Source of the DNA: a virus
DNA: 64,000 bases
IMG/VR virus record: IMGVR_UViG_3300017917_003742
Coordinates: 1-64,000 of that record
Strand: one strand, 5' to 3'
Below are positions 12,156-29,227 of the stretch, piece by piece. The notes beneath the pieces were generated by a model. That model saw nothing but the letters and a program-made list of their open reading frames with translations, had not been told where the DNA came from and made no database searches. Each line of letters begins with the position of its first letter. Position 1 is the stretch's first letter. The position numbers were made by a program, and so were the translations under genes.

Positions 12156-12202
12156 AAAACCTTTTATAAAAATTATAATATTTTTTGGCCTTTTTTAAAA
12201 TT

Positions 12203-12667
12203 ATGAGCAAAGAATTTATTAAGAACTGGTTTAGCAACATGCTTCCTTTTGATAGTCCACTAGTGGTTGACGGAATTTCATACCCCGCTGTGGAAAATTA
12301 TTATCAAGCAATGAAATTGCACGAAAATGATTTCGAGGGCAGAAAACTACTAGCATCGGTTTCTCCAAGAAAAAGCAAAACTCTGGTAAGAGAAATGAAG
12401 CAAAGAGAGCTTTCTGTTTCTGAAAAAATAAAATTTATGCGTTTTGCAATAGAGCATAAATACTCTAACAACACAAGCTGGGGTAAAAAATTATTAGAAA
12501 CTGGCGATGAACAGATTATTGAATACAACAATTGGGGTGACGTTTTTTGGGGATTTGATGTTGAAAAGGGTGAGGGAAAAAATCTTCTTGGTTTATTGTT
12601 AATGGCTCGTCGTTCAGAACTAAACTTGGAAAATCTTTTAAATGAAAGTTGTAAACTTAAAAACTGA
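12203..12667 (+). CDS. NADAR-domain ADP-ribose N-glycosidase-like protein (YbiA-type)
   Basis: A 154-residue protein from the ATG at 12203; a TTG 18 bp upstream is in frame but unlikely. The whole length fits NADAR: WFSNM near residue 9, an E-N-Y-Y-Q helix at 31-35, the SPRKSK segment, WGKKLLETGDEQIIEYNNWGD (93-113, read in two parts), WGFD and G-x-N-LLGLLLM. NADAR proteins remove ADP-ribose from modified guanine in DNA and act on related N-glycosidic ADP-ribose compounds. In a phage, an attractive role is reversing DarT-type DNA ADP-ribosylation by the host. It overlaps the DUF4326 gene by 26 bp. Confidence 0.88.
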   Translation: MSKEFIKNWFSNMLPFDSPLVVDGISYPAVENYYQAMKLHENDFEGRKLLASVSPRKSKTLVREMKQRELSVSEKIKFMRFAIEHKYSNNTSWGKKLLETGDEQIIEYNNWGDVFWGFDVEKGEGKNLLGLLLMARRSELNLENLLNESCKLKN

Positions 12668-12945: not shown

Positions 12946-13842
12946 ATGGTATTACTGCTTGGTAAAAACGGATACGTTTCAAAACGTTTTATTGATTTTT
13001 TCGAATTTAAAAATATAAAATATAAAAGTCTTTCTTTAAAAGACACAAACCTTTCGCCTTCTTACGTTTTAGAATCGGTTATAGACGAAATAAAACCTCG
13101 TTTTGTTATAAATGCAATGGGTTACACAGGAGTTCCAAACGTGGACGCTTGTGAAGACAGTAAAAAAGAGTGTCTTTTTGCTAACGTAATTCTTGCCGAA
13201 GGTGTAGCGGATATGTGTCGTAAGAAAAACCTTCCTCTTGGCTTTGTTAGCAGTGGTTGTATTTACAACGAAGATGAAGTTGAATGGTGGAGAACTTATA
13301 AAGAAAAGGATTGGCCTAATTTTTCATTCTACAACACGAAAAGCGATTGCTCATGGTATAGTGGAACAAAAGCTCTTGGAGAAAGTCTTGTAAGAAAAAG
13401 CTGGGACCGAACCAGAATATTCAGATTAAGAATGCCATTTAATCATTTGGACGGTCCTAAAAACTATCTCTCCAAAATATTCACTTATGACAAAGTGTTG
13501 AGTCTTGAAAATTCTCTTACAAATCTTGATGAGTTTGTTCGTGCAGTTTATCAAGGAATGAATGCGGAAACTCCCTATGGAACATATAACATTGTTAATC
13601 ATGGAGGAATAAGTGCAAAAAGAATTCACACTCTTGCCAAAGCATACAATCTTGGAAAAGAGAGTTATGAATACTTCGAAAGTTTAGAAGAGTTTAACAA
13701 AGTTGTAAGAACACCTAGAAGCAATTGTGTTTTAGATACTAGTAAAATTAAAACTGAGGGCATTTACATGCTTCCAGTTGAGGAGAGTTTAATTAGATGT
13801 TTTGAATCATGGAATCAACCCGAAAGAAAAATATTCTGGTAA
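12946..13842 (+). CDS. RmlD-like NAD(P)-dependent sugar reductase/epimerase
   Basis: A 298-residue extended short-chain dehydrogenase. The N-terminal LLLGKNGYVSKRF is the dinucleotide-binding turn, FVINAMGYTGVPNVD the cofactor strand, SSGCIY the catalytic Ser region and Y-S-G-T-K (YSGTKALGE) the catalytic Tyr/Lys. This is closest to dTDP-4-dehydrorhamnose reductases, which complete a 6-deoxysugar. It overlaps the rmlB-like gene by 34 bp and probably works with it. The exact sugar made is uncertain because no RmlC-type epimerase is visible. Confidence 0.75.
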   Translation: MVLLLGKNGYVSKRFIDFFEFKNIKYKSLSLKDTNLSPSYVLESVIDEIKPRFVINAMGYTGVPNVDACEDSKKECLFANVILAEGVADMCRKKNLPLGFVSSGCIYNEDEVEWWRTYKEKDWPNFSFYNTKSDCSWYSGTKALGESLVRKSWDRTRIFRLRMPFNHLDGPKNYLSKIFTYDKVLSLENSLTNLDEFVRAVYQGMNAETPYGTYNIVNHGGISAKRIHTLAKAYNLGKESYEYFESLEEFNKVVRTPRSNCVLDTSKIKTEGIYMLPVEESLIRCFESWNQPERKIFW

Positions 13843-14807
13843 CAGGTGGACTTGGCTTTATTGGCTGGAACTTTATTAATAAAGTATTAGGTGAAAATTT
13901 AATTGAGTGTGATGTTTTAGTAAACATTGACAGTGGTGAGTATTCTGCCATTAACAATATACCGCTTGAAACTCCAAAGTATAAGTTTTACAAAGGAAAA
14001 ATGGGTGAATTGAGTGAATCTGTTTTGGAAAACTACAATATAGATACTGTGGTAAATTTTGCTGCAAGCACACACGTTGACAACTCCATCAAAAGCGTAA
14101 AAGCATTTGTGGAAAACAATGTTTTAGAAATGAGCATTCTCATGGAAAACTGCCGAAACTTTTGGAAAAAGAAAAACATAGACGGCTTGTTTGTTCAAAT
14201 TAGCACAGACGAAGTTTTTGGTAGTGTAGAAGATCAAGGAGGAATATCATTCAACGAATACACTCTTCATCATCCAAACAATCCTTATAGTGCAACAAAA
14301 AGTGCAGCAGAAGTTTTACTTCGCTCTTTTATGCACACTTACAACTTTCCAGCAATTATTACAAACTGTGGAAATAATTATGGACCGGGACAGCATGAGG
14401 AAAAACTAATTCCTAAAATTATAAAGTGTTGCTTAGAAAAGAAAAGCATTCCAATTTACGGAAACGGAATGCAAAAACGCGACTGGATTTATGTGGACGA
14501 TCACTGTGAAGGAATTGCTCGCGCAATTCATCTTGGACGAAAAGGAGATTCTTATCTTTTTGGAACAACTAAAAATGTTACAAACTTGGAACTTACTAAA
14601 ATTATTTGCCGAATTTTAGACAAAAAATTAAACAGCATTTCTCCACTTGAATCTCTTATACATTTTGTTGAAGATCGTTTGGGTCATGATGTAACATACA
14701 CTGTGGATTATGCCCGCTCACTTCAAATGTTGGGATGGGAACCAAAAACAGATTTAAGTGAAGGACTTGAAAAAACTGTTGACTGGTATTTAAATAAAAT
14801 ACAATGA
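13809..14807 (+). CDS. rmlB: dTDP-glucose 4,6-dehydratase
   Basis: A 332-residue protein, normal length for RmlB. ILVTGGLGFIGWNFI is the NAD-binding motif, STDEVFGSV carries the T-D-E catalytic triad part, and YSATKSAAEVLLRSF the catalytic Y-x-x-x-K. RDWIYVDDHCEGI is typical of this enzyme. It converts dTDP-glucose to dTDP-4-keto-6-deoxyglucose. It sits between the RmlD-like reductase and RmlA, with overlaps of 34 bp and 4 bp, so the three form one operon for nucleotide-sugar synthesis. Confidence 0.9.
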   Translation: MESTRKKNILVTGGLGFIGWNFINKVLGENLIECDVLVNIDSGEYSAINNIPLETPKYKFYKGKMGELSESVLENYNIDTVVNFAASTHVDNSIKSVKAFVENNVLEMSILMENCRNFWKKKNIDGLFVQISTDEVFGSVEDQGGISFNEYTLHHPNNPYSATKSAAEVLLRSFMHTYNFPAIITNCGNNYGPGQHEEKLIPKIIKCCLEKKSIPIYGNGMQKRDWIYVDDHCEGIARAIHLGRKGDSYLFGTTKNVTNLELTKIICRILDKKLNSISPLESLIHFVEDRLGHDVTYTVDYARSLQMLGWEPKTDLSEGLEKTVDWYLNKIQ

Positions 14808-15523
14808 AAGGAATAATTTTAGCGGGAGGGCGGGGATCGAGATTAGCACCTTTAACAAAAGCAGTTAGCAAGCAGTTGCTTCCTGTTTACAAATATCCAA
14901 TGATTTATTTCCCAATCAACACATTACTCCAAATGGGAATAGAGGATATTTTAATCATAACAACACCAGAACATCAAAATCTTTTTAAGGAAACTCTCAA
15001 AGATTTAAAATGTGCAAATTTTTCTTATATTGTTCAGGACAGTCCTCGCGGTTTGCCAGAAGCGTTTGTTCTCGCAGAAGAGTGGTTAGAAGGCAGTGAC
15101 GTTGCGCTTATTTTAGGTGACAACATTATAATTAATAACGCTCCAATAGATTGCCTTCCAAACACGGTTTTTTCCTACAAAGTTAAACATCCTGAAAGAT
15201 ATGGTGTGTTGGATTTTGACGAAGATGGTCGCATCAAAAACATTGTTGAAAAGCCTCAAACATACATTAGCGACAATGCAATGATTGGTCTTTATGTATT
15301 AGAGAATAGTGCATGTGAAATCGCCAAAAAATTAAAACCATCAAGCCGAGGCGAACTTGAAATTGTTGACCTTATCAAAGAAATGAATAAAAAACATCCT
15401 GTTTCAGTTTTAGAACTTGATGGTTTCTGGTTTGATGCAGGAACACATGACGATCTTCTTGATTGTGGTAATCTTGTAAAAGCTATAGAATTTAGAACAA
15501 ACAAGAGCTTCGATTTAGCTTGA
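14804..15523 (+). CDS. rmlA: Glucose-1-phosphate thymidylyltransferase
   Basis: A 239-residue nucleotidyltransferase. The N terminus MKGIILAGGRGSRLAPLT is the nucleotide-binding signature, followed by KQLLPVYKYPMIYFPI and a metal-binding GDN near residue 105. It makes dTDP-glucose from dTTP and glucose-1-phosphate, feeding RmlB. It is about 50 residues shorter than typical bacterial RmlA at the C terminus, lacking part of the allosteric tail, which may reduce feedback control by dTDP-rhamnose (inference). The start overlaps the rmlB stop by 4 bp. Confidence 0.9.
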   Translation: MKGIILAGGRGSRLAPLTKAVSKQLLPVYKYPMIYFPINTLLQMGIEDILIITTPEHQNLFKETLKDLKCANFSYIVQDSPRGLPEAFVLAEEWLEGSDVALILGDNIIINNAPIDCLPNTVFSYKVKHPERYGVLDFDEDGRIKNIVEKPQTYISDNAMIGLYVLENSACEIAKKLKPSSRGELEIVDLIKEMNKKHPVSVLELDGFWFDAGTHDDLLDCGNLVKAIEFRTNKSFDLA

Positions 15524-15553: not shown

Positions 15554-16891
15554 ATGGACGAAATCACATTAAATGAAGATCAAAAAGCTGTTTTCGAAAA
15601 ACTAAAAGACTTTATTGACTCCTCTAGTCAACATATGTTTCTTATGGAAGGTGCAGCAGGCACAGGAAAAACAACAACCGTTTCGCAATTTATTGGTTGG
15701 CTTTTAGAAGAAACAAACATTTCTAACATTGCTATGGCAAGCCCAACGCACAAAGCGTTAAAGGTTATGATGGAAATGTGCCCTGATAAACATCGAGGAA
15801 GTATTCAATTTTTAACACTGCATTCTATGCTTGGATTAAAGCATGAAATTACCAAAGATGGTAAAGAAATTTTTGTTCGTGATAAAAATGTAATGACAAA
15901 GTTTCCATTTTTTGAGCTTGTTATCATTGATGAAAGTAGTATGATTGCAGACCAACTCTTTAATGAGATGGAAGATCAAAACTATCGTAAAATCAAAGTT
16001 TTGTTTGTTGGTGACAGTAATCAGATTAATCCTGTGAATCACAAGATGAGCATTCCAATGCTGCCTGAAAAGCGAAAAGAATTTAATATTGGTCACTGCC
16101 GACTTGAGAAAATTGTTCGTCAAGCGGAAGGCAATCCCATCATCAAATACTCTCAAAAAATTATCAACAACGAATTCTCGTTTAATCCCGGTGAAAAAGA
16201 GATGGTTGGAGACAGCGGCATTGTAATGCTTTCAGAAAGTCAAAACAAAGTGTTACAGCAACTCTTACAGTATTATTTTGGCTCTTCAAAGTTTGACGAA
16301 GATGCAAACTATTGTAAACTCATTGCATGGAGAAACGCCACTGTAGAATTTTACAACAAGCTTGTTCGAAATTTCAAATATGGACCTAAAGCGGGTAAGA
16401 TTGTGCTTGATGAAAAACTTATTGTTGACCGTCCAATTAAAGGAGATGATGATAAAGTTTCATTCGCAACAAACGAAGACTTGGTTGTGAAAAATATTGA
16501 AGTCAAAGAGAAAAAGCTTTTTGATAACGACTCTTGGCTTTATTACGACTGTCTTGTTCAAGGAATGGATAAATGCGGCAACATTCATATTCTTCATGAG
16601 AAAGAAGAAAAGCGTTACACAGACACTCTTCGTAAACTTGCCAAAGATGCAGTTGATGAAAAGGAAGTTTCCGCTCGTCTCAAAAAGTGGAGAAAATATT
16701 ATTCTTTCATGGAAAACTTTGCACAGGTAAAATACAACTATGCAATTACTGCTCACTGCTCTCAAGGCAGCACATATGACAATTGCTTTGTATTACACAG
16801 TGACATTGGCATTAACCGAAACGAGGAAGAAAGACGCAGAATTCTCTACACTTCTTTTACAAGACCAAGAAAAATGCTATACATTTTGTAA
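15554..16891 (+). CDS. dda: Dda-like SF1B DNA helicase
   Basis: A 445-residue helicase, close to T4 Dda in length (439). LNEDQKAVFEKL is the Q-like motif, GAAGTGKTT the Walker A (about residues 35-43), PTHKALK motif Ia, VIIDESSMI the Walker B, VGDSNQINPV motif III and YAITAHCSQGSTYD motif V/VI, ending in LYTSFTRPRKMLYIL as in Dda. It should unwind DNA 5' to 3' and help start replication and clear bound proteins. It has its own early-type promoter and is followed by a small gene with another promoter. Confidence 0.9.
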   Translation: MDEITLNEDQKAVFEKLKDFIDSSSQHMFLMEGAAGTGKTTTVSQFIGWLLEETNISNIAMASPTHKALKVMMEMCPDKHRGSIQFLTLHSMLGLKHEITKDGKEIFVRDKNVMTKFPFFELVIIDESSMIADQLFNEMEDQNYRKIKVLFVGDSNQINPVNHKMSIPMLPEKRKEFNIGHCRLEKIVRQAEGNPIIKYSQKIINNEFSFNPGEKEMVGDSGIVMLSESQNKVLQQLLQYYFGSSKFDEDANYCKLIAWRNATVEFYNKLVRNFKYGPKAGKIVLDEKLIVDRPIKGDDDKVSFATNEDLVVKNIEVKEKKLFDNDSWLYYDCLVQGMDKCGNIHILHEKEEKRYTDTLRKLAKDAVDEKEVSARLKKWRKYYSFMENFAQVKYNYAITAHCSQGSTYDNCFVLHSDIGINRNEEERRRILYTSFTRPRKMLYIL

Positions 16892-19361: not shown

Positions 19362-20012
19362 ATGCCAGAAAAACTAGATAGGTTCTATTATAGAACCGTT
19401 AAGAAGAATTGTCTTTATTGTGGCTGTGAACTTAAATTAAATAATAATAGAGATGTGGAACGAAAAACCTTCTGCAACAGAAGTCATTCTGCATACTGGA
19501 ATAAAGATAATAGGAATTTTACTAATAACAAACCTCACAAGGAAGAGACTAAACAGAAAATCAAAAAATCTGCAAAGGCGAGAGAAAATTGGAAAGGTGA
19601 TAAAAATCCTAATTACAAAGGAAAATTAAAGAGAGGTAAACGTCTTTCTGAAAACCAAAAAGAGTTTTTACGGAAGAGAATGTTAGACGGAGGGGCTTTA
19701 GTTGCTCGAAAAGGTAATAAACGGAAAAGTTCTATTCAGATAAAAGTTGAAAATTACCTGACAAGTATAGGTATTTCTTTTATTGATGAATATAGACTCA
19801 ATAATAGATTAGTTGATATTTTTATAGAGCCTAATATAGTTATTGAATGCGATGGAAATTATTGGCACAGCTTTCCGCACATTAAACTCAAAGACGAGAA
19901 ATTGAATTCTTTTTGTCGAGAAAATAATATCGAAATAATTCGTCTTACGGAAACCCAAATAAAACAATCCGAATTTATACAAATTTTGGATAAATATTTT
20001 AATGGGAAATAA
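19362..20012 (+). CDS. Homing endonuclease (zinc finger, NUMOD3, Vsr-like nuclease)
   Basis: A 216-residue protein. It has a putative zinc-binding CLYCGCEL with FCNRSHSAYW (residues 12-45), then NUMOD3-like DNA-binding repeats (HKEETKQKI and NPNYKGK, about 58-88). The C-terminal nuclease domain contains VDIFIEPNIVIECDGNYWH, with acidic residues and a His fitting the Vsr-like/EDxHD fold of homing enzymes such as I-Bth0305I. It should cut DNA and spread as a free-standing selfish element. No intron boundary is visible around it. Its last 11 bp overlap the next small gene. Confidence 0.8.
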   Translation: MPEKLDRFYYRTVKKNCLYCGCELKLNNNRDVERKTFCNRSHSAYWNKDNRNFTNNKPHKEETKQKIKKSAKARENWKGDKNPNYKGKLKRGKRLSENQKEFLRKRMLDGGALVARKGNKRKSSIQIKVENYLTSIGISFIDEYRLNNRLVDIFIEPNIVIECDGNYWHSFPHIKLKDEKLNSFCRENNIEIIRLTETQIKQSEFIQILDKYFNGK

Positions 20013-20142: not shown

Positions 20143-20643
20143 TTAACAAACCTTTTTACTCAAATTACAAAATAAATCTTTTAAAGAGTTTTCGTCAAGA
20201 AAACTCTTTAATTTTTTAGGGTCCACAGGTGTTTTATTTTTGAGAAGCAACACTTCGTCAATAACACTACCCTCTAGTTCATTTACAAGAGCCTGATTTG
20301 GAATATCAGTTTTCTTTTTTAGGAAGAACAATTTGTTTGTAACACTTTTGAGTTTCTTACAAATTTTATTAAGAAAGTTTGTTAATTTCTCACGATCATA
20401 ATATTTGAATAGTTCGTGAGATTCAGAAAAAAAGTTGTCATGAAAAAATAACAAGTCTTTGTCGTTTGTTATTCTGTCGCCAAATCGTTTAACAAATAGG
20501 TAGAAAATTATTTTCTTTGCATTGCGATCTAGTTTAGAAAGCAACTTGTATTCGTATAAACAATCAACGATTTCTTTCTCGATAAGAAATAAGAATCGGT
20601 CTATGTTCTCAAAGCTGTATAGCATAAGATAATATAACCTCAA
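20143..20643 (-). CDS. Hypothetical protein, 166 aa
   Basis: Not recognised. The composition is strongly helical and lysine-rich (KKIIFYLF, KKLKSV and LFFLKKK), with no signal peptide. It overlaps the GIY-YIG/terminase-like gene by 4 bp and should be translated with it. Its size is close to T4 gp16 (small terminase), but it lies downstream rather than upstream and shares no visible motif, so that link is only positional. Confidence 0.6.
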   Translation of the reverse strand: MRLYYLMLYSFENIDRFLFLIEKEIVDCLYEYKLLSKLDRNAKKIIFYLFVKRFGDRITNDKDLLFFHDNFFSESHELFKYYDREKLTNFLNKICKKLKSVTNKLFFLKKKTDIPNQALVNELEGSVIDEVLLLKNKTPVDPKKLKSFLDENSLKDLFCNLSKKVC

Positions 20644-21794
20644 CTGAACTCACATTCAAGTTCGTTTTTGAATGCTTGTTCTCCAGCCAATTTTATAAAA
20701 TCTTCTTTCCATTTTTCATCTCTATCGGGAATGTCACTCCATATTATTTTATTCTTATGAAACGTTTCGTTGTTATAAAGTTTTATAAGAATTGAATCCT
20801 CGGTTTTTGGGGTTCCTGAAATTATAAGTTTATTAGATTTTGAACTTTTTACAACAGGTAAGCACGCTTTCAAAAATTGTTCCTTATCATCTTCTTCACA
20901 AAGATCTATATTATCTAAAATTAATAAACTGTGATTTTTACCTCTTATAATATTTGTGTTTAAACTAGAAGTGCCTATTTTACTACCATTTGAGAAATAT
21001 ATAGCGTCTGATCGTTGTTCAATTATTTTAGGAAAAAGAGGATTATTAAAGAAATAACAGGTTCTTCTTAATAATTCGTTGTAATGATGTGCATTCACAC
21101 AGTTCATGGTATAAATTCCTGCGGAAAAATCTTTATTGAATAAACAACAGTGTAATGAGAATAATACGTGAAGCATAGACATTCCTGATTGACGACCTGC
21201 TATAGTTACGTTCATTTTATTTTCATTCCAGTCTTTTAATATTTCTTTTTGTTTATTATACAATTTTATAGAAGAAGACGCACCATCATGTGTGTTCCAT
21301 TTGACATGATTTTCGATAAAATAAACTATATCGTTTTTACACTTTTCATATTCATCGGATGATGAATTGTCTATAACTACTCTGTATTTTTCGATTAAAT
21401 CTTTTGGGGGACCGTTGAGACGAATGTTGATAATTCCGTTATAATAATCTTCACGAAGAATAGCATTCTCCTTTAATTGCCACATAAGTTCAAGATAGGC
21501 ACTTTCCCACTTGCATGTAGTTAATTCTAGAATTTCTCTCTTAAAGTTTTCTTTACCGTATTTCTTAAGGTCTTCTTTTAATTCATTAGAAGAACCATAG
21601 TATTTCTTCCAGTCGCTTTCTTTGACCACGCGACGACTTCTAGTTTTACCTTTTAGTGGAGGTCTTTTCTGATTGCTCCAGAATTGTTTTTTACCGATAT
21701 ACTTTTTACCATTAGACAGACAAGTGATACGATAAACAAAGCCAAACCACTCACTAATATCTTCTGGAACATTTTCCCAAGAGTTTTCATTCAT
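20640..21794 (-). CDS. GIY-YIG nuclease fused to a degenerate large-terminase ATPase domain
   Basis: A 384-residue protein in two parts. Residues 17-128 are a GIY-YIG domain: GFVY (18-21), KKYIGKK (30-36), SDWKKYYGSS (60-69), YGKENFKREI and YYNGIINIR. This matches the stand-alone phage GIY-YIG family. Residues 176-384 follow T4 gp17 ATPase order: LYNKQKEIL, G-R-Q-S-G-M-S at the Walker A position (200-206), FNKDFSAGI, a D-A-I-Y-F-SNGSKIG segment, NIIRGKNHSLLILDNID as Walker B, SGTP (326-329) and ELECEFS at the end. The Walker A Lys is Met and the nuclease domain is absent. It is unlikely to be the working terminase. Confidence 0.8.
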   Translation of the reverse strand: MNENSWENVPEDISEWFGFVYRITCLSNGKKYIGKKQFWSNQKRPPLKGKTRSRRVVKESDWKKYYGSSNELKEDLKKYGKENFKREILELTTCKWESAYLELMWQLKENAILREDYYNGIINIRLNGPPKDLIEKYRVVIDNSSSDEYEKCKNDIVYFIENHVKWNTHDGASSSIKLYNKQKEILKDWNENKMNVTIAGRQSGMSMLHVLFSLHCCLFNKDFSAGIYTMNCVNAHHYNELLRRTCYFFNNPLFPKIIEQRSDAIYFSNGSKIGTSSLNTNIIRGKNHSLLILDNIDLCEEDDKEQFLKACLPVVKSSKSNKLIISGTPKTEDSILIKLYNNETFHKNKIIWSDIPDRDEKWKEDFIKLAGEQAFKNELECEFS

Positions 21795-21800
21795 ACTGGA

Positions 21801-21808
21801 TATTTACT
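21801..21808 (-). promoter_or_regulatory. T4-late-like box (AGTAAATA)
   Basis: Minus-strand AGTAAATA followed by 6 nt and the ATG of the GIY-YIG/terminase-like gene. A similar box, AGTAAATA (21997-22004), lies 7 nt upstream of the next minus-strand gene. Confidence 0.45.
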
Positions 21809-21989
21809 TCCGTTTTTTGCGCTTTCTAGTCTTTTTGGTTTTTACTTTTCCTCTTCTGGAATATGTTCCCATTATAAACGGAGTTCGTGGATCATCTGTA
21901 GGATAAGGACCATCAGAACCTAATACTCCTGCATCAGTCATACCGTCTTCTAAAAACATTTTTACTATTTTGTCAAAATTTTTAGTCAT
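21804..21989 (-). CDS. Small basic protein, 61 aa
   Basis: A 61-residue protein with a neutral N-terminal half (VLGSDGPYPTDDPRTPF) and a very basic tail (KKTRKRKKRK). No family is recognised. The basic tail suggests nucleic-acid or charged-partner binding. It precedes the GIY-YIG/terminase-like gene by 9 bp, and a TAAATA box 7 nt before its start suggests late expression. Confidence 0.6.
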   Translation of the reverse strand: MTKNFDKIVKMFLEDGMTDAGVLGSDGPYPTDDPRTPFIMGTYSRRGKVKTKKTRKRKKRK

Positions 21990-22446: not shown

Positions 22447-23099
22447 TGAATTATTCTAATGCACTACGCGAACAAGAAATAATTAAAAATAGACACGATA
22501 GTTATTTTGATGATTTATGGGAAGTTATTAATGGGCGAGCATCCACTCCTGTAAAAGATTATGAAAAAAGGCTTGCAGATTCTATAATGAATGAATCTAA
22601 TAAACAGATGAACACTACTGAATGTAAAACTATATCCGCAGTAAATTATTTTCCTTCCGATAATTTTTACGACAAGATGTTCACTAACTCTTTTGAATCA
22701 GATGTGAAACTTTTATCGAATTTTGAAGCAACAACAAATCTGTGTCTTTCTGGAACAATTGAAAATATCAACTACTCTTATCAGACTCTTTGGCCGAAAA
22801 AGGATACTTCTCAGAAGAAAGTATATAAAAACTTTAATATTGATGATTTTAAGTATAGAGACGTTGCAAAGAGAAATATAAAAGCTGTTTTCCAAAAAAG
22901 AAAAATAAAAAACAAAGAAGAATGTATATATATTGTTGATAATCTTTCACCAGAAGGTGTAGAAATTTTTATTAAAAAATATGTTAATAGAGAAATAAAA
23001 TGCTCTATACTAAAAATGTTGAGAAAGCTAGAAGCTTCTGATTGTACTTTTAATACACAAGATTGTGTATTTGAAAAATGGCAGAAGACATCAGAGTAA
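22443..23099 (+). CDS. Hypothetical protein, 218 aa
   Basis: Not recognised. It lies between the UvsY-like and UvsW genes, overlapping the first by 4 bp and the second by 22 bp. It is charged and mainly helical, with cysteines at C-T-F-N-T-Q-D-C near the end. Its place in the recombination operon suggests a role in DNA processing or packaging, but there is no motif to support one. Two ATGs in tandem (22443 and 22446) make the exact start uncertain by one codon. Confidence 0.65.
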   Translation: MMNYSNALREQEIIKNRHDSYFDDLWEVINGRASTPVKDYEKRLADSIMNESNKQMNTTECKTISAVNYFPSDNFYDKMFTNSFESDVKLLSNFEATTNLCLSGTIENINYSYQTLWPKKDTSQKKVYKNFNIDDFKYRDVAKRNIKAVFQKRKIKNKEECIYIVDNLSPEGVEIFIKKYVNREIKCSILKMLRKLEASDCTFNTQDCVFEKWQKTSE

Positions 23100-24502
23100 C
23101 ATACGATAAGAAGAGTGGATATTTAAAATGTTCACCTAACGTTTTTAAACTGGTAAGAGAAAAGTTCTCTATAAAGAATCCATCTTATCAATCTAGGAAG
23201 TTTGTTCCTAGATTATATTCTATCACGCCTGCGGGTGCGTTTCAGGTAGGAATGTGGAACGAGATTGAACATTATATTCGTTCTCTTAACATTCCTGTTA
23301 AAATAACATTATCAGACGAGTTTAAAAATCAATTTAATCCCCAAACAAACATCAAGGAAATTTCTAAGATTGATGGATTCACTTATTATGATTATCAAGA
23401 GGATACACTAAACGAGTTTATCAAGAATGGTAGAGGTATATCACTTGTTGCTACTGGTGGCGGTAAAGCACTGATTGCAGGTGGCTTGTGTAAAACATTC
23501 CTCGATCACTATCCTCATTTCAAGATATTAATCATTGTTCCAAACGTGTCGTTGTTAAATCAACTTTACTATTCTTTCCTAGATGAATTTGGAATAAGTT
23601 GTATATCTCGTTGGGGAGATGGTAAGCTTCCTGATTTATCTCAAAATATTCTCATTGCTAACTCTCAAATCTTAACAAGTGACATCAAAGCAACACTAGC
23701 TGTTGTCGGGAATTATGATGTTGTAATTGTTGATGAAGTTCATACCATTAACGAGAAGAAAAACAAAATCAGCAAAGTGGTTCATAATATAACCACACCT
23801 TTCAAGTTTGGACTTACAGGAACACTACCAGATAGTCTTATGGCAAGCTGGAATGTTATTGGCAAGATTGGTCCTATTGTTTATGAGAAGACTTCTTATG
23901 AATTACGTAAACAAGGCACTATTACAGATGTCAAAATCAAAATGGTTTTATGTCAACATGAACGTGTGCCTGTGTTTCTAACTGGTCCAAATCCAACTGA
24001 CAAATATAACGCAGAATACGATTATGTTATAAACTACGCTCCAAGAAACGATGTTATTAAAAAGCTTTGTGACAAGCTTGTAGGAAACACATTGATTGTT
24101 GTGGACAGATTGGATTATATCTCAGTCTTGAAAAAATTATTAGAGGGTGGAGACAAAAAGATTTTCGTTATCACAGGCGAGACTCCAACAAGTGAGAGAA
24201 CAGAAATCCAGAACACTATGGACAAAGAAGATGGAATCATTTGTATTGCCATGAGCAAATGCTTTTCCACTGGTATTTCGATTAAGAATCTTCATTATGC
24301 AATTTTTGCATACATGGGAAAAGGTGGTGTTAAAACAGTTCAAACCATTGGCCGAACTGTTCGTAAACACAGTAGCAAAGAAGTAGCTGTGATTTTTGAC
24401 ATAGCTGACAACTTAGAATACTCTCGTAAACATGCAAAAGAAAGACTCCAAATATACAAAGAGCAAAAAATTGAGTATTCTATTACAAAAATAAAAATTT
24501 AA
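23078..24502 (+). CDS. uvsW: UvsW-like SF2 helicase
   Basis: A 474-residue SF2 helicase, close to T4 UvsW. YYDYQEDTLNEF is the Q motif, VATGGGKALIA motif I, VDEVHT motif II (DEVH, T4 has DECH), GLTGTLPDSL motif III, FSTGISIKNLHY motif V and QTIGRTVRKH motif VI. The residue after the P-loop Lys is Ala instead of Ser/Thr; T4 UvsW is also atypical there. UvsW unwinds R-loops and branched DNA, moving the phage from origin-based to recombination-based replication. It follows the uvsY-like gene. Confidence 0.9.
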   Translation: MAEDIRVTYDKKSGYLKCSPNVFKLVREKFSIKNPSYQSRKFVPRLYSITPAGAFQVGMWNEIEHYIRSLNIPVKITLSDEFKNQFNPQTNIKEISKIDGFTYYDYQEDTLNEFIKNGRGISLVATGGGKALIAGGLCKTFLDHYPHFKILIIVPNVSLLNQLYYSFLDEFGISCISRWGDGKLPDLSQNILIANSQILTSDIKATLAVVGNYDVVIVDEVHTINEKKNKISKVVHNITTPFKFGLTGTLPDSLMASWNVIGKIGPIVYEKTSYELRKQGTITDVKIKMVLCQHERVPVFLTGPNPTDKYNAEYDYVINYAPRNDVIKKLCDKLVGNTLIVVDRLDYISVLKKLLEGGDKKIFVITGETPTSERTEIQNTMDKEDGIICIAMSKCFSTGISIKNLHYAIFAYMGKGGVKTVQTIGRTVRKHSSKEVAVIFDIADNLEYSRKHAKERLQIYKEQKIEYSITKIKI

Positions 24503-28064: not shown

Positions 28065-28718
28065 ATGAAAATTTTAATTACTAGTGGAGGAACCGATGTT
28101 CCTATTGACGATGTTCGTAAAATCTCTAACATGAGTTCAGGAAAATATGGTGCCGAAATTGCAACTGTATTACATGATAATTTTTTTAATGAACATGATA
28201 TTTGGTACTTAGGGAAAAAAGGTGGAGTGTTCCCTAATCCAGAGATAGATTTACATTTTCAAGGTAAAAAATATTTAGGTAATTTAATATTTTCTAATTA
28301 TGAAGAATATAAAGAGAATAGCATAATAGCAGCGGCAAAGATTTCACCTGACATAATTATTTCCGCAGCAGCGGTTTCCGATTACATCTTGGATAAAACA
28401 GAAGGTAAAATTTCTAGTGACAATGATGAACTTGTTATTCGCTTGAAGAAAGCTCCGAAGATTTTACCTTTGCTTCGTGAAGCGGCTCCAAATGCGCTTC
28501 TGGTAGGCTTTAAACTGCTTGTAAGTCCATCCAAGGATGAGATTGACAGTGCCGTTCAAAAGGTGTTTAAAAACGGCGCAGATTTGGTCGTGTATAACGA
28601 CTTAACAGAGATTCGCAAAGGTAATCTCATACGCTATGTTTTTACTCCTACCATGAGTTTCACTATTGCAAGAGACGCCAAAGAATTAGTAGACATAATC
28701 CTCAATTATAAGAAATGA
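28065..28718 (+). CDS. coaB: Phosphopantothenate-cysteine ligase (CoaB-like)
   Basis: A 217-residue protein. The N-terminal ITSGGTDVPIDDVRKISNMS with SSG matches the CoaB nucleotide-binding region (TAGPT...ISN-SSG in bacteria). SAAAVSDY, a lysine-rich segment KKAPKILPLL and VVYNDLT follow in the CoaB order. It joins phosphopantothenate and cysteine. In most bacteria this is the C-terminal half of a fused CoaBC (Dfp); here it is a separate gene, followed by CoaC with a 4-bp overlap. Together they would carry out two consecutive steps of coenzyme A synthesis in the host. Confidence 0.85.
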   Translation: MKILITSGGTDVPIDDVRKISNMSSGKYGAEIATVLHDNFFNEHDIWYLGKKGGVFPNPEIDLHFQGKKYLGNLIFSNYEEYKENSIIAAAKISPDIIISAAAVSDYILDKTEGKISSDNDELVIRLKKAPKILPLLREAAPNALLVGFKLLVSPSKDEIDSAVQKVFKNGADLVVYNDLTEIRKGNLIRYVFTPTMSFTIARDAKELVDIILNYKK

Positions 28719-29227
28719 AAGTGTTACACGGTTTAACAGGAAGTGTCGCAACTGTTCTGAATGATAAAATTCGACAATCTTATAATTTAGTATCATTTGA
28801 TACAAAATTTATTGCAACTAACAATTCCTTTCAAATATCTAGTGTAGGAGAAGCTTATACAGATAGTAGCGAATGGTTCGTTTATAGAGAAGAGAAAAAA
28901 GTTCTTCATATCGAACTTGTTAAGTGGGCAGATGTTTTTGTCATTGCACCACTCTCTGCTAACACTCTCGCAAAAATTGCAAATGGAATTTGTGACAACT
29001 TGCTCACATGTGTCGCAAGAGCGTGGGATTTCGAGAAACCTTTCATTGTTGCTCCCGCCATGAATACAAAAATGTGGACTCATCCAATAACAGAAGAGCA
29101 TGTTAAAAAACTTCGTTCATGGGGAATATCTGTTTTAGAACCTGTTGAGAAAACTCTTTATTGTGGTGACACAGGAATAGGAGCAATGACAAATATTGAA
29201 AACATTATTAGAGCAATAAAAATATGA
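28715..29227 (+). CDS. coaC: Phosphopantothenoylcysteine decarboxylase (CoaC-like)
   Basis: A 170-residue HFCD-family flavoprotein. The FMN-binding region starts at GLTGSVA, the catalytic His is H65 in VLHIELVKWAD, the substrate motif PAMNTKMW carries N117, and C150 lies in LYCGDTGIGAM. These are the three key residues of bacterial CoaC, all present, so it is probably active. It is separate from CoaB, in the order coaB then coaC, opposite to the domain order of the usual fusion. It overlaps its neighbours by 4 bp on each side. Confidence 0.88.
   Translation: MKVLHGLTGSVATVLNDKIRQSYNLVSFDTKFIATNNSFQISSVGEAYTDSSEWFVYREEKKVLHIELVKWADVFVIAPLSANTLAKIANGICDNLLTCVARAWDFEKPFIVAPAMNTKMWTHPITEEHVKKLRSWGISVLEPVEKTLYCGDTGIGAMTNIENIIRAIKI

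Follow-up and report, generated by a model that had tools for sequence, protein, structure and literature searches.

Free-standing SegE-type GIY-YIG homing endonucleases (PF19835, phrog_447) either end after the nuclease domain or carry NUMOD/HTH DNA-binding tails, and in many homing endonucleases the DNA-targeting domain lies at the C-terminal end. The large terminase T4 gp17 (PF03237, phrog_2/5989) contains an ATPase domain and a RuvC-like nuclease domain. Chimeric phage nucleases are represented by Odn of phage ICP1, in which a GIY-YIG-like nuclease carries a captured non-nuclease domain, the DNA-binding domain of the satellite RepA, and is directed at the satellite (PMC8263062). An intron endonuclease was found to serve interference between co-infecting phages (PMC11620839). 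As for the packaging machinery, T4 motors take up ATPase-defective gp17 subunits, packaging then being impaired (PMC8589836), and an HNH nuclease beside the terminase of HK97 participates in cos cleavage, as described in PMC10448857.

Here we analysed a window of 64,000 nucleotides within an IMG/VR contig (75,159 b) that belongs to a T4-like bacterial virus. One gene of this window shares the domain, the catalytic residues and a variable genomic slot with the SegE-type enzymes, but has a 246-aa gp17-like pseudo-ATPase in place of their tails. With T4 gp17 it shares the ATPase fold, the R-Q-x-G loop, the Walker B Asp and the motif III Thr, but it lacks the Walker A Lys, the catalytic Glu and the RuvC-like nuclease domain, and is joined to a GIY-YIG domain. 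Like Odn, it is a nuclease with a captured domain; the target of the Odn domain has been shown, whereas the captured domain here is a packaging ATPase whose partner is proposed from homology. No fusion protein of such design was found in the literature searched. Both parts are known, as are chimeric phage nucleases, and the combination appears to be new.

Architecture of the fusion gene

The fusion gene was found as a single frame without interruption. The gene, its parts and its neighbours are listed below with the evidence for each.

20640..21794, minus strand: fusion gene, 384 aa, GIY-YIG nuclease and gp17-like pseudo-ATPase (ORF, Pfam, PDB sequence search, recurrence in loci L002/L003)
21384..21794, minus strand: SegE-type GIY-YIG nuclease domain, aa 1-137 (PF19835, alignment)
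20643..21380, minus strand: T4 gp17-like ATPase domain, aa 139-384, predicted to be catalytically dead, without nuclease domain (PF03237, phrog_5989, AF2, Foldseek)
21177..21197, minus strand: Walker A in degenerate form, G-R-Q-S-G-M-S (aa 200-206), with Met205 in place of Lys (terminase alignment)
20901..20927, minus strand: degenerate Walker B, L-L-I-L-D-N-I-D-L, aa 290-298, Glu replaced by Asn295, Asp294 kept (alignment)
20643..20744, minus strand: block at the C-terminal end (aa 351-384), IWSDIP..DEKWK...ELECEF, with some of the best-kept gp17 positions (alignment)
21804..21989, minus strand: gene of 61 aa upstream of the fusion, flanking the slot and conserved (comparison with relatives)
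20143..20625, minus strand: gene of 160 aa (MLYSFENIDRFL...) downstream of the fusion, flanking the slot and conserved (comparison with relatives)
19362..20012, plus strand: HNH/Vsr-like (MTES_1575, NUMOD3-like; phrog_559) endonuclease gene (window only)

The preliminary description had proposed a chimera of a GIY-YIG nuclease and a terminase ATPase domain, which was confirmed by the two Pfam families, by the AF2/Foldseek similarity to T4 gp17 and by the recurrence of the fusion in L002/L003. The Pfam scan assigned aa 10-122 to SegE_GIY-YIG (PF19835; E 3.5e-36, 124.6 bits with a cut-off of 25), and a short tail follows up to about aa 137; the domain had thus been recognised correctly, while its extent, given as the N-terminal 128 residues, had not. 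Y21, Y32, G34 and E102 were invariant in an alignment of 15 SegE-like rows, the catalytic Glu102 being retained in the fusion, and the nuclease domain is intact-looking as judged from this alignment. The T5orf172 nuclease and RepA_N-type DNA-binding domain of the Odn type are not the domains that Pfam detected in the fusion.

In the C-terminal part, aa 199-383 matched Terminase_6N (PF03237; E 9.3e-8, 32.4 bits with a cut-off of 22). The only significant PDB sequence match was T4 gp17 (aa 146-331, E about 3e-17). The structure prediction that had been suggested as a check gave an AF2 model of aa 139-384 (43 rows) with a mean pLDDT of 89.2, and Foldseek matched this model best to 2o0j, the ATPase domain of T4 gp17 (E 1.7e-19, TM 0.89). 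The tail of the fusion, at aa ~146-383, is predicted by the model to adopt the gp17-type ASCE ATPase fold. The full-length AF2 model was poor (pLDDT 41) and did not give the mutual placement of the two domains. The ATPase part also matched phrog_5989 (3.4e-36), and in the full-length scan this match extended into the GIY-YIG part. The idea that phrog_5989 is a family of ready-made fusions was rejected, as L135, a true gp17, is also matched by this profile, which is therefore a gp17 N-part family. The G+C content was lower in the tail (0.289 and 0.245 in the two fusions) than in the nuclease part (0.345 and 0.321).

The P-loop of the fusion reads A-G-R-Q-S-G-M-S, and Met205 occupies the position of Lys in 41/41 aligned terminases; Leu is found there in L002 and Ile in a paralogue of phage LR756500 described below. 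Similarly, Asn295 (L-D294-N295-I-D) replaces the catalytic Glu present in all of the 41 terminases, while R201, Q202, G204, D294 and T328 were retained. Both replacements agreed with the earlier reading of the sequence. Lambda-type terminases use an alternative Walker A lysine located upstream. Such a rescue was rejected for the fusion, in which Ala occupies position -2 from R (LR756500 has Ser there). The protein terminates with ...ELECEF-S at the point where gp17s enter the nuclease domain, so the RuvC/RNase H-like nuclease domain is absent, again as proposed. We take the portal-contact helix-loop-helix of T4 gp17 (about residues 333-353) to fall in the region of the C-terminal block. The view that part of a packaging motor was fused to a nuclease foreign to it was upheld, in the form of an apparently catalytically dead gp17 ATPase domain following a SegE GIY-YIG domain.

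The slot in relatives and the phage's own gp17

The homologue survey proposed in the preliminary description recovered the fusion a second time, and at the corresponding locus, in L002 and L003, two contigs with identical gene sequence from samples other than that of the window. The motifs differed in sequence from those of the window, reading GRQSGLS and VDNIDY. Distinct fusion sequences are known from the window and from L002/L003 alone. No fusion beyond these was detected in further viral scans, in the cellular genome contigs searched, or in 50,697 phage records at the sensitivity of tblastn. In the phage records, coverage of at least 80% was reached by two records, both of the same genome of Agrobacterium phage Atu_ph04. 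This phage (97% coverage) was rejected as a third fusion, as the match was in two pieces and the terminase was a separate, full-length gp17.

In the window and in L002/L003, the fusion is located between a short gene upstream and the ~160-aa gene (MLYSFENIDRFL...) downstream. In seven loci of relatives (L004, L005, L006-L008, L101 and L107), the slot was occupied by a 139-144-aa GIY-YIG gene alone, which ended just ahead of the downstream gene with no terminase remnant, indicating that the ATPase tail was gained by, or lost from, a standing gene. L009/L010 had another GIY-YIG in the slot, and L099/L104 had a 361-aa GIY-YIG/NUMOD3-like enzyme on the opposite strand; no clean empty allele was present among the relatives' loci compared. 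These varying contents identify the slot as a homing-endonuclease slot. The earlier suggestion of a homing enzyme targeting terminase genes was not supported, because the slot is far from gp17, close relatives have the same GIY-YIG without the ATPase part, and gp17 ATPase domains are not known to bind DNA sequence-specifically. The GIY-YIG part of the window showed 93-95% aa identity to the stand-alone versions of L004/L005. The nearest GIY-YIG to the window was that of tail-less L005 (nt identity 0.876), and the nearest to L002 was that of tail-less L004 (0.910). The presence of the tail did not track GIY-YIG relatedness, a pattern suggestive of recombination or repeated loss.

Other features were noted around the slot and elsewhere in the window. 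The endonuclease gene at 19362-20012 was absent from relatives having both of its flanking genes, and this presence/absence site could be used for mapping its target. Two adjacent genes at 28065-29227 resemble the coenzyme A synthesis proteins CoaB (DFP domain) and CoaC (flavoprotein) as separate units, which is unusual in a phage. The window also contains a NADAR-domain gene (12185-12667) and nucleotide-sugar genes (RmlD-like and neighbours; 12946-15523).

Regarding the true terminase, which was to be sought elsewhere in the genome, the result was twofold. No second gp17 or terminase was found on the window's own contig, and a weak PF03237 score at 15644 was rejected as a candidate, being a helicase P-loop. 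Synteny with relatives nevertheless places an intact gp17 just past the contig end. A relative with the stand-alone GIY-YIG (G001, locus L107) has an intact 572-codon gp17 frame with CASRQIGKST, FVDEFA and the nuclease domain, and further clade members with gp17 include L146, which came from the same metagenome as L002. L136 and L146 share the gene order of a tail-repeat gene, a MENDLVS-like gene and gp17, the tail-repeat gene of relatives lying ~1 kb from intact gp17. The window's contig terminates inside the same tail-repeat gene (57-61% identity to L136/L146), and the genes preceding its end match L136/L146 in order. The phage's own gp17 is therefore expected about 1 kb beyond the contig end, and the gene order makes it very likely that the phage has another, normal gp17. 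The ATPase domain of the fusion showed about 30-32% identity to the clade's own gp17; owing to this low identity and its position outside gp17 in the tree, derivation of the tail from the clade's own gp17 was rejected.

The Walker A motif of gp17 was itself an insertion site in the phage clade of the window. L136 (4714-7449) has a 340-aa intein-like insert exactly after the catalytic lysine (RQIGK / ... HN / TTLM), L157-L160 have long inserts in 1168-codon gp17 frames, and the gp17 frames of L163 and L164 are enlarged and altered right after the lysine. In LR756500.1 (L172, 6392-12828), gp17 is seemingly split, with an endonuclease gene of 367 aa between an N piece of 192 aa and a C piece of 629 aa. 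The C piece has an intein-like start and is followed by a dead ATPase paralogue and another endonuclease of 615 aa; by sequence this gp17 is a candidate split-intein terminase. A large in-frame intein-like insert was also present in L107 (1751-4324), in the homologue of the window's helicase gene (23078-24502), where it follows the ATPase motif (GAGK / CFGKGTQ...VTHN / SLIQAG).

Constraint on the tail and paralogues of the gp17 ATPase domain

Comparison of the tails of the window and L002 over 243 aligned codons gave identities of 59% at the nt level and 49% at the aa level, with dN of 0.48 and dS of 1.5. For the GIY-YIG part, dN was 0.05 and dS 0.99. The dN/dS of the tail was about 0.3, such ratios being approximate because synonymous sites are near saturation. 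In a neutral simulation of the tail with 25% of sites changed, a stop was gained in 2000/2000 runs. These dN/dS figures and the stop in every neutral run argue that constraint on the tail is relaxed but real. The amino-acid evolution of the tail was ~10x faster than that of the nuclease part, and because it evolves fast and is missing from close relatives, the ATPase tail is regarded as dispensable.

Invariance of at least 95% among gp17s was seen in 64 columns, of which 25 were kept by both fusions and 26 were lost by both. The changes common to both were K-loss, A229T, N230M, K231N, S287N, E295N, F296I, A297D and S327G; since the two fusions often have the same new residue, catalysis was lost before the lineages split. 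The conserved columns were unevenly kept, with 11/15 in the N-block, 5/9 in the C-block and 9/39 in the catalytic middle, which includes Walker B and the coupling motif. The tails of the window and L002 were monophyletic (100/100 in one tree, 100/99 in another) and fell outside all sampled gp17s.

When the fusion tails were used as queries against all loci fetched, stand-alone ATPase-only paralogues of gp17 were recognised in other phages, apparently for the first time. L162 encodes a 254-aa paralogue with intact motifs (ARQTGKT and LDEVD) and has an intact gp17 on the same contig. In LR756500, a 462-kb uncultured phage, a 272-aa paralogue directly follows gp17 and is dead like the fusion (SSRQMGIS and IDNIS; K to I, E to N). 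The short gp17.2 of Sinorhizobium phage phiM12 is located directly upstream of gp17 and has intact motifs. All three resemble the fusion tail in being gp17 ATPases without the nuclease domain and additional to gp17, but they stand alone, and the L162 and phiM12 copies keep the Walker A Lys and Walker B Glu. The L162 and LR756500 paralogues and the fusion tail consist of the ATPase domain alone and end at the gp17 domain boundary. The nearest tree row to the two fusion tails was the LR756500 copy (87/88), and L162 grouped with them at 69/47; the branches were long, which leaves a common ancestry of all of them tentative. As the LR756500 copy is equally dead and adjoins gp17, the fusion tail can be placed in a broader group of degenerate paralogues of the gp17 ATPase, and the copies in LR756500, L162 and phiM12 indicate that gp17 ATPase domains have repeatedly been kept apart from the motor enzyme. 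Our searches brought up no earlier account that treats pseudo-ATPase copies of the packaging motor as one group. A 394-aa gp17-ATPase-like protein was also observed among metabolic genes of a 735-kb phage (LR756501.1; L173, 2902-4086), with Walker B intact and a Walker A, KSRQMGIT, having a possible alternative lysine.

Possible roles of the fusion protein

The interpretation ranked first, which we hold tentatively, is packaging-directed interference, in which the pseudo-ATPase would dock the GIY-YIG nuclease on packaging complexes or DNA. The ATPase domain, which lacks the ATP-catalytic residues but has kept its fold and reading frame, would act as a docking module that does not hydrolyse ATP. 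Homology suggests the portal, the gp17 ring, the small terminase or the DNA end under packaging as its partner, and docking would tether the active nuclease to packaging complexes or packaging-competent DNA. We infer this role because the tail takes the position of a targeting domain, its N- and C-blocks have been preserved but its catalytic centre has not, and a dead copy adjoins gp17 in LR756500. The likeliest benefit would be competitive, by cutting DNA being packaged by a co-infecting phage or satellite; alternatively, the dead subunit may poison the competitor's motor, given that in principle a gp17-like subunit without catalysis could be built into a motor or obstruct it, by analogy with T4 (PMC8589836). 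With an identity of about 30% to the domain, the gp17 of the phage itself would be spared or tolerant. The overall interpretation of the preliminary description was supported in part, its alternatives of a packaging regulator and an interference factor both being conceivable.

The main rival explanation, which we rank second and hold to be somewhat unlikely, is that the fusion is a selfish passenger, namely a GIY-YIG gene in a hot spot that caught a fragment of a gp17 paralogue by illegitimate recombination, with a tail whose only contribution, if any, would be to homing (through solubility or non-specific DNA affinity) and which brings the phage no benefit. The variable slot, the extra endonuclease nearby in the window only, and the closest kinship of both fusions to tail-less genes agree with this explanation. 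However, the frame has stayed open at a dN/dS of about 0.3 over near-saturated synonymous divergence, and dead or ATPase-only paralogues stand alone in other phages, which argues that the ATPase domain has some use of its own.

An accessory role in the phage's own packaging, for instance by entering the ring as a non-catalytic subunit or by cutting to make packaging ends, would fit the ATPase-only paralogues adjoining gp17 in phiM12 (gp17.2) and LR756500, the tolerance of T4 motors for inactive subunits (PMC8589836) and the precedent of the HK97 HNH nuclease (PMC10448857). We consider it improbable, given the distance between the fusion and the packaging genes, its absence from close relatives, which presumably package normally, and an identity of only about 30% between its ATPase domain and the clade's gp17.

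Avs-type STAND proteins of hosts recognise the large-terminase fold, and a decoy or antagonist of such sensors would be expected to look like a dead, fast-evolving terminase mimic. Indeed, the ATPase model matched the terminase of the Avs3-bound structure 8dgc (Foldseek, E 1.5e-7). This explanation is speculative and leaves the nuclease part without a role, and we regard it as very improbable. An assembly or sequencing chimera, conceivable for one contig of a draft metagenomic assembly, can be dismissed along with chance, because L002/L003, contigs from other samples, have the same architecture with a different sequence and a 49%-identical tail.

Extending the interpretation of packaging-directed interference, T4-like and giant phages might repeatedly duplicate the gp17 ATPase domain to give a motor-mimic pseudoenzyme docking on packaging complexes, here armed with GIY-YIG as a packaging-targeted interference nuclease that would destroy the DNA of competitors or satellites during packaging, although this generalisation is unlikely at present. 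If docking is true, nature would have supplied, in the dead domain, a dominant-negative or targeting reagent for biomotors of the strongest class known, and the fusion would represent a new route from a homing endonuclease to a tool of virus-virus competition.
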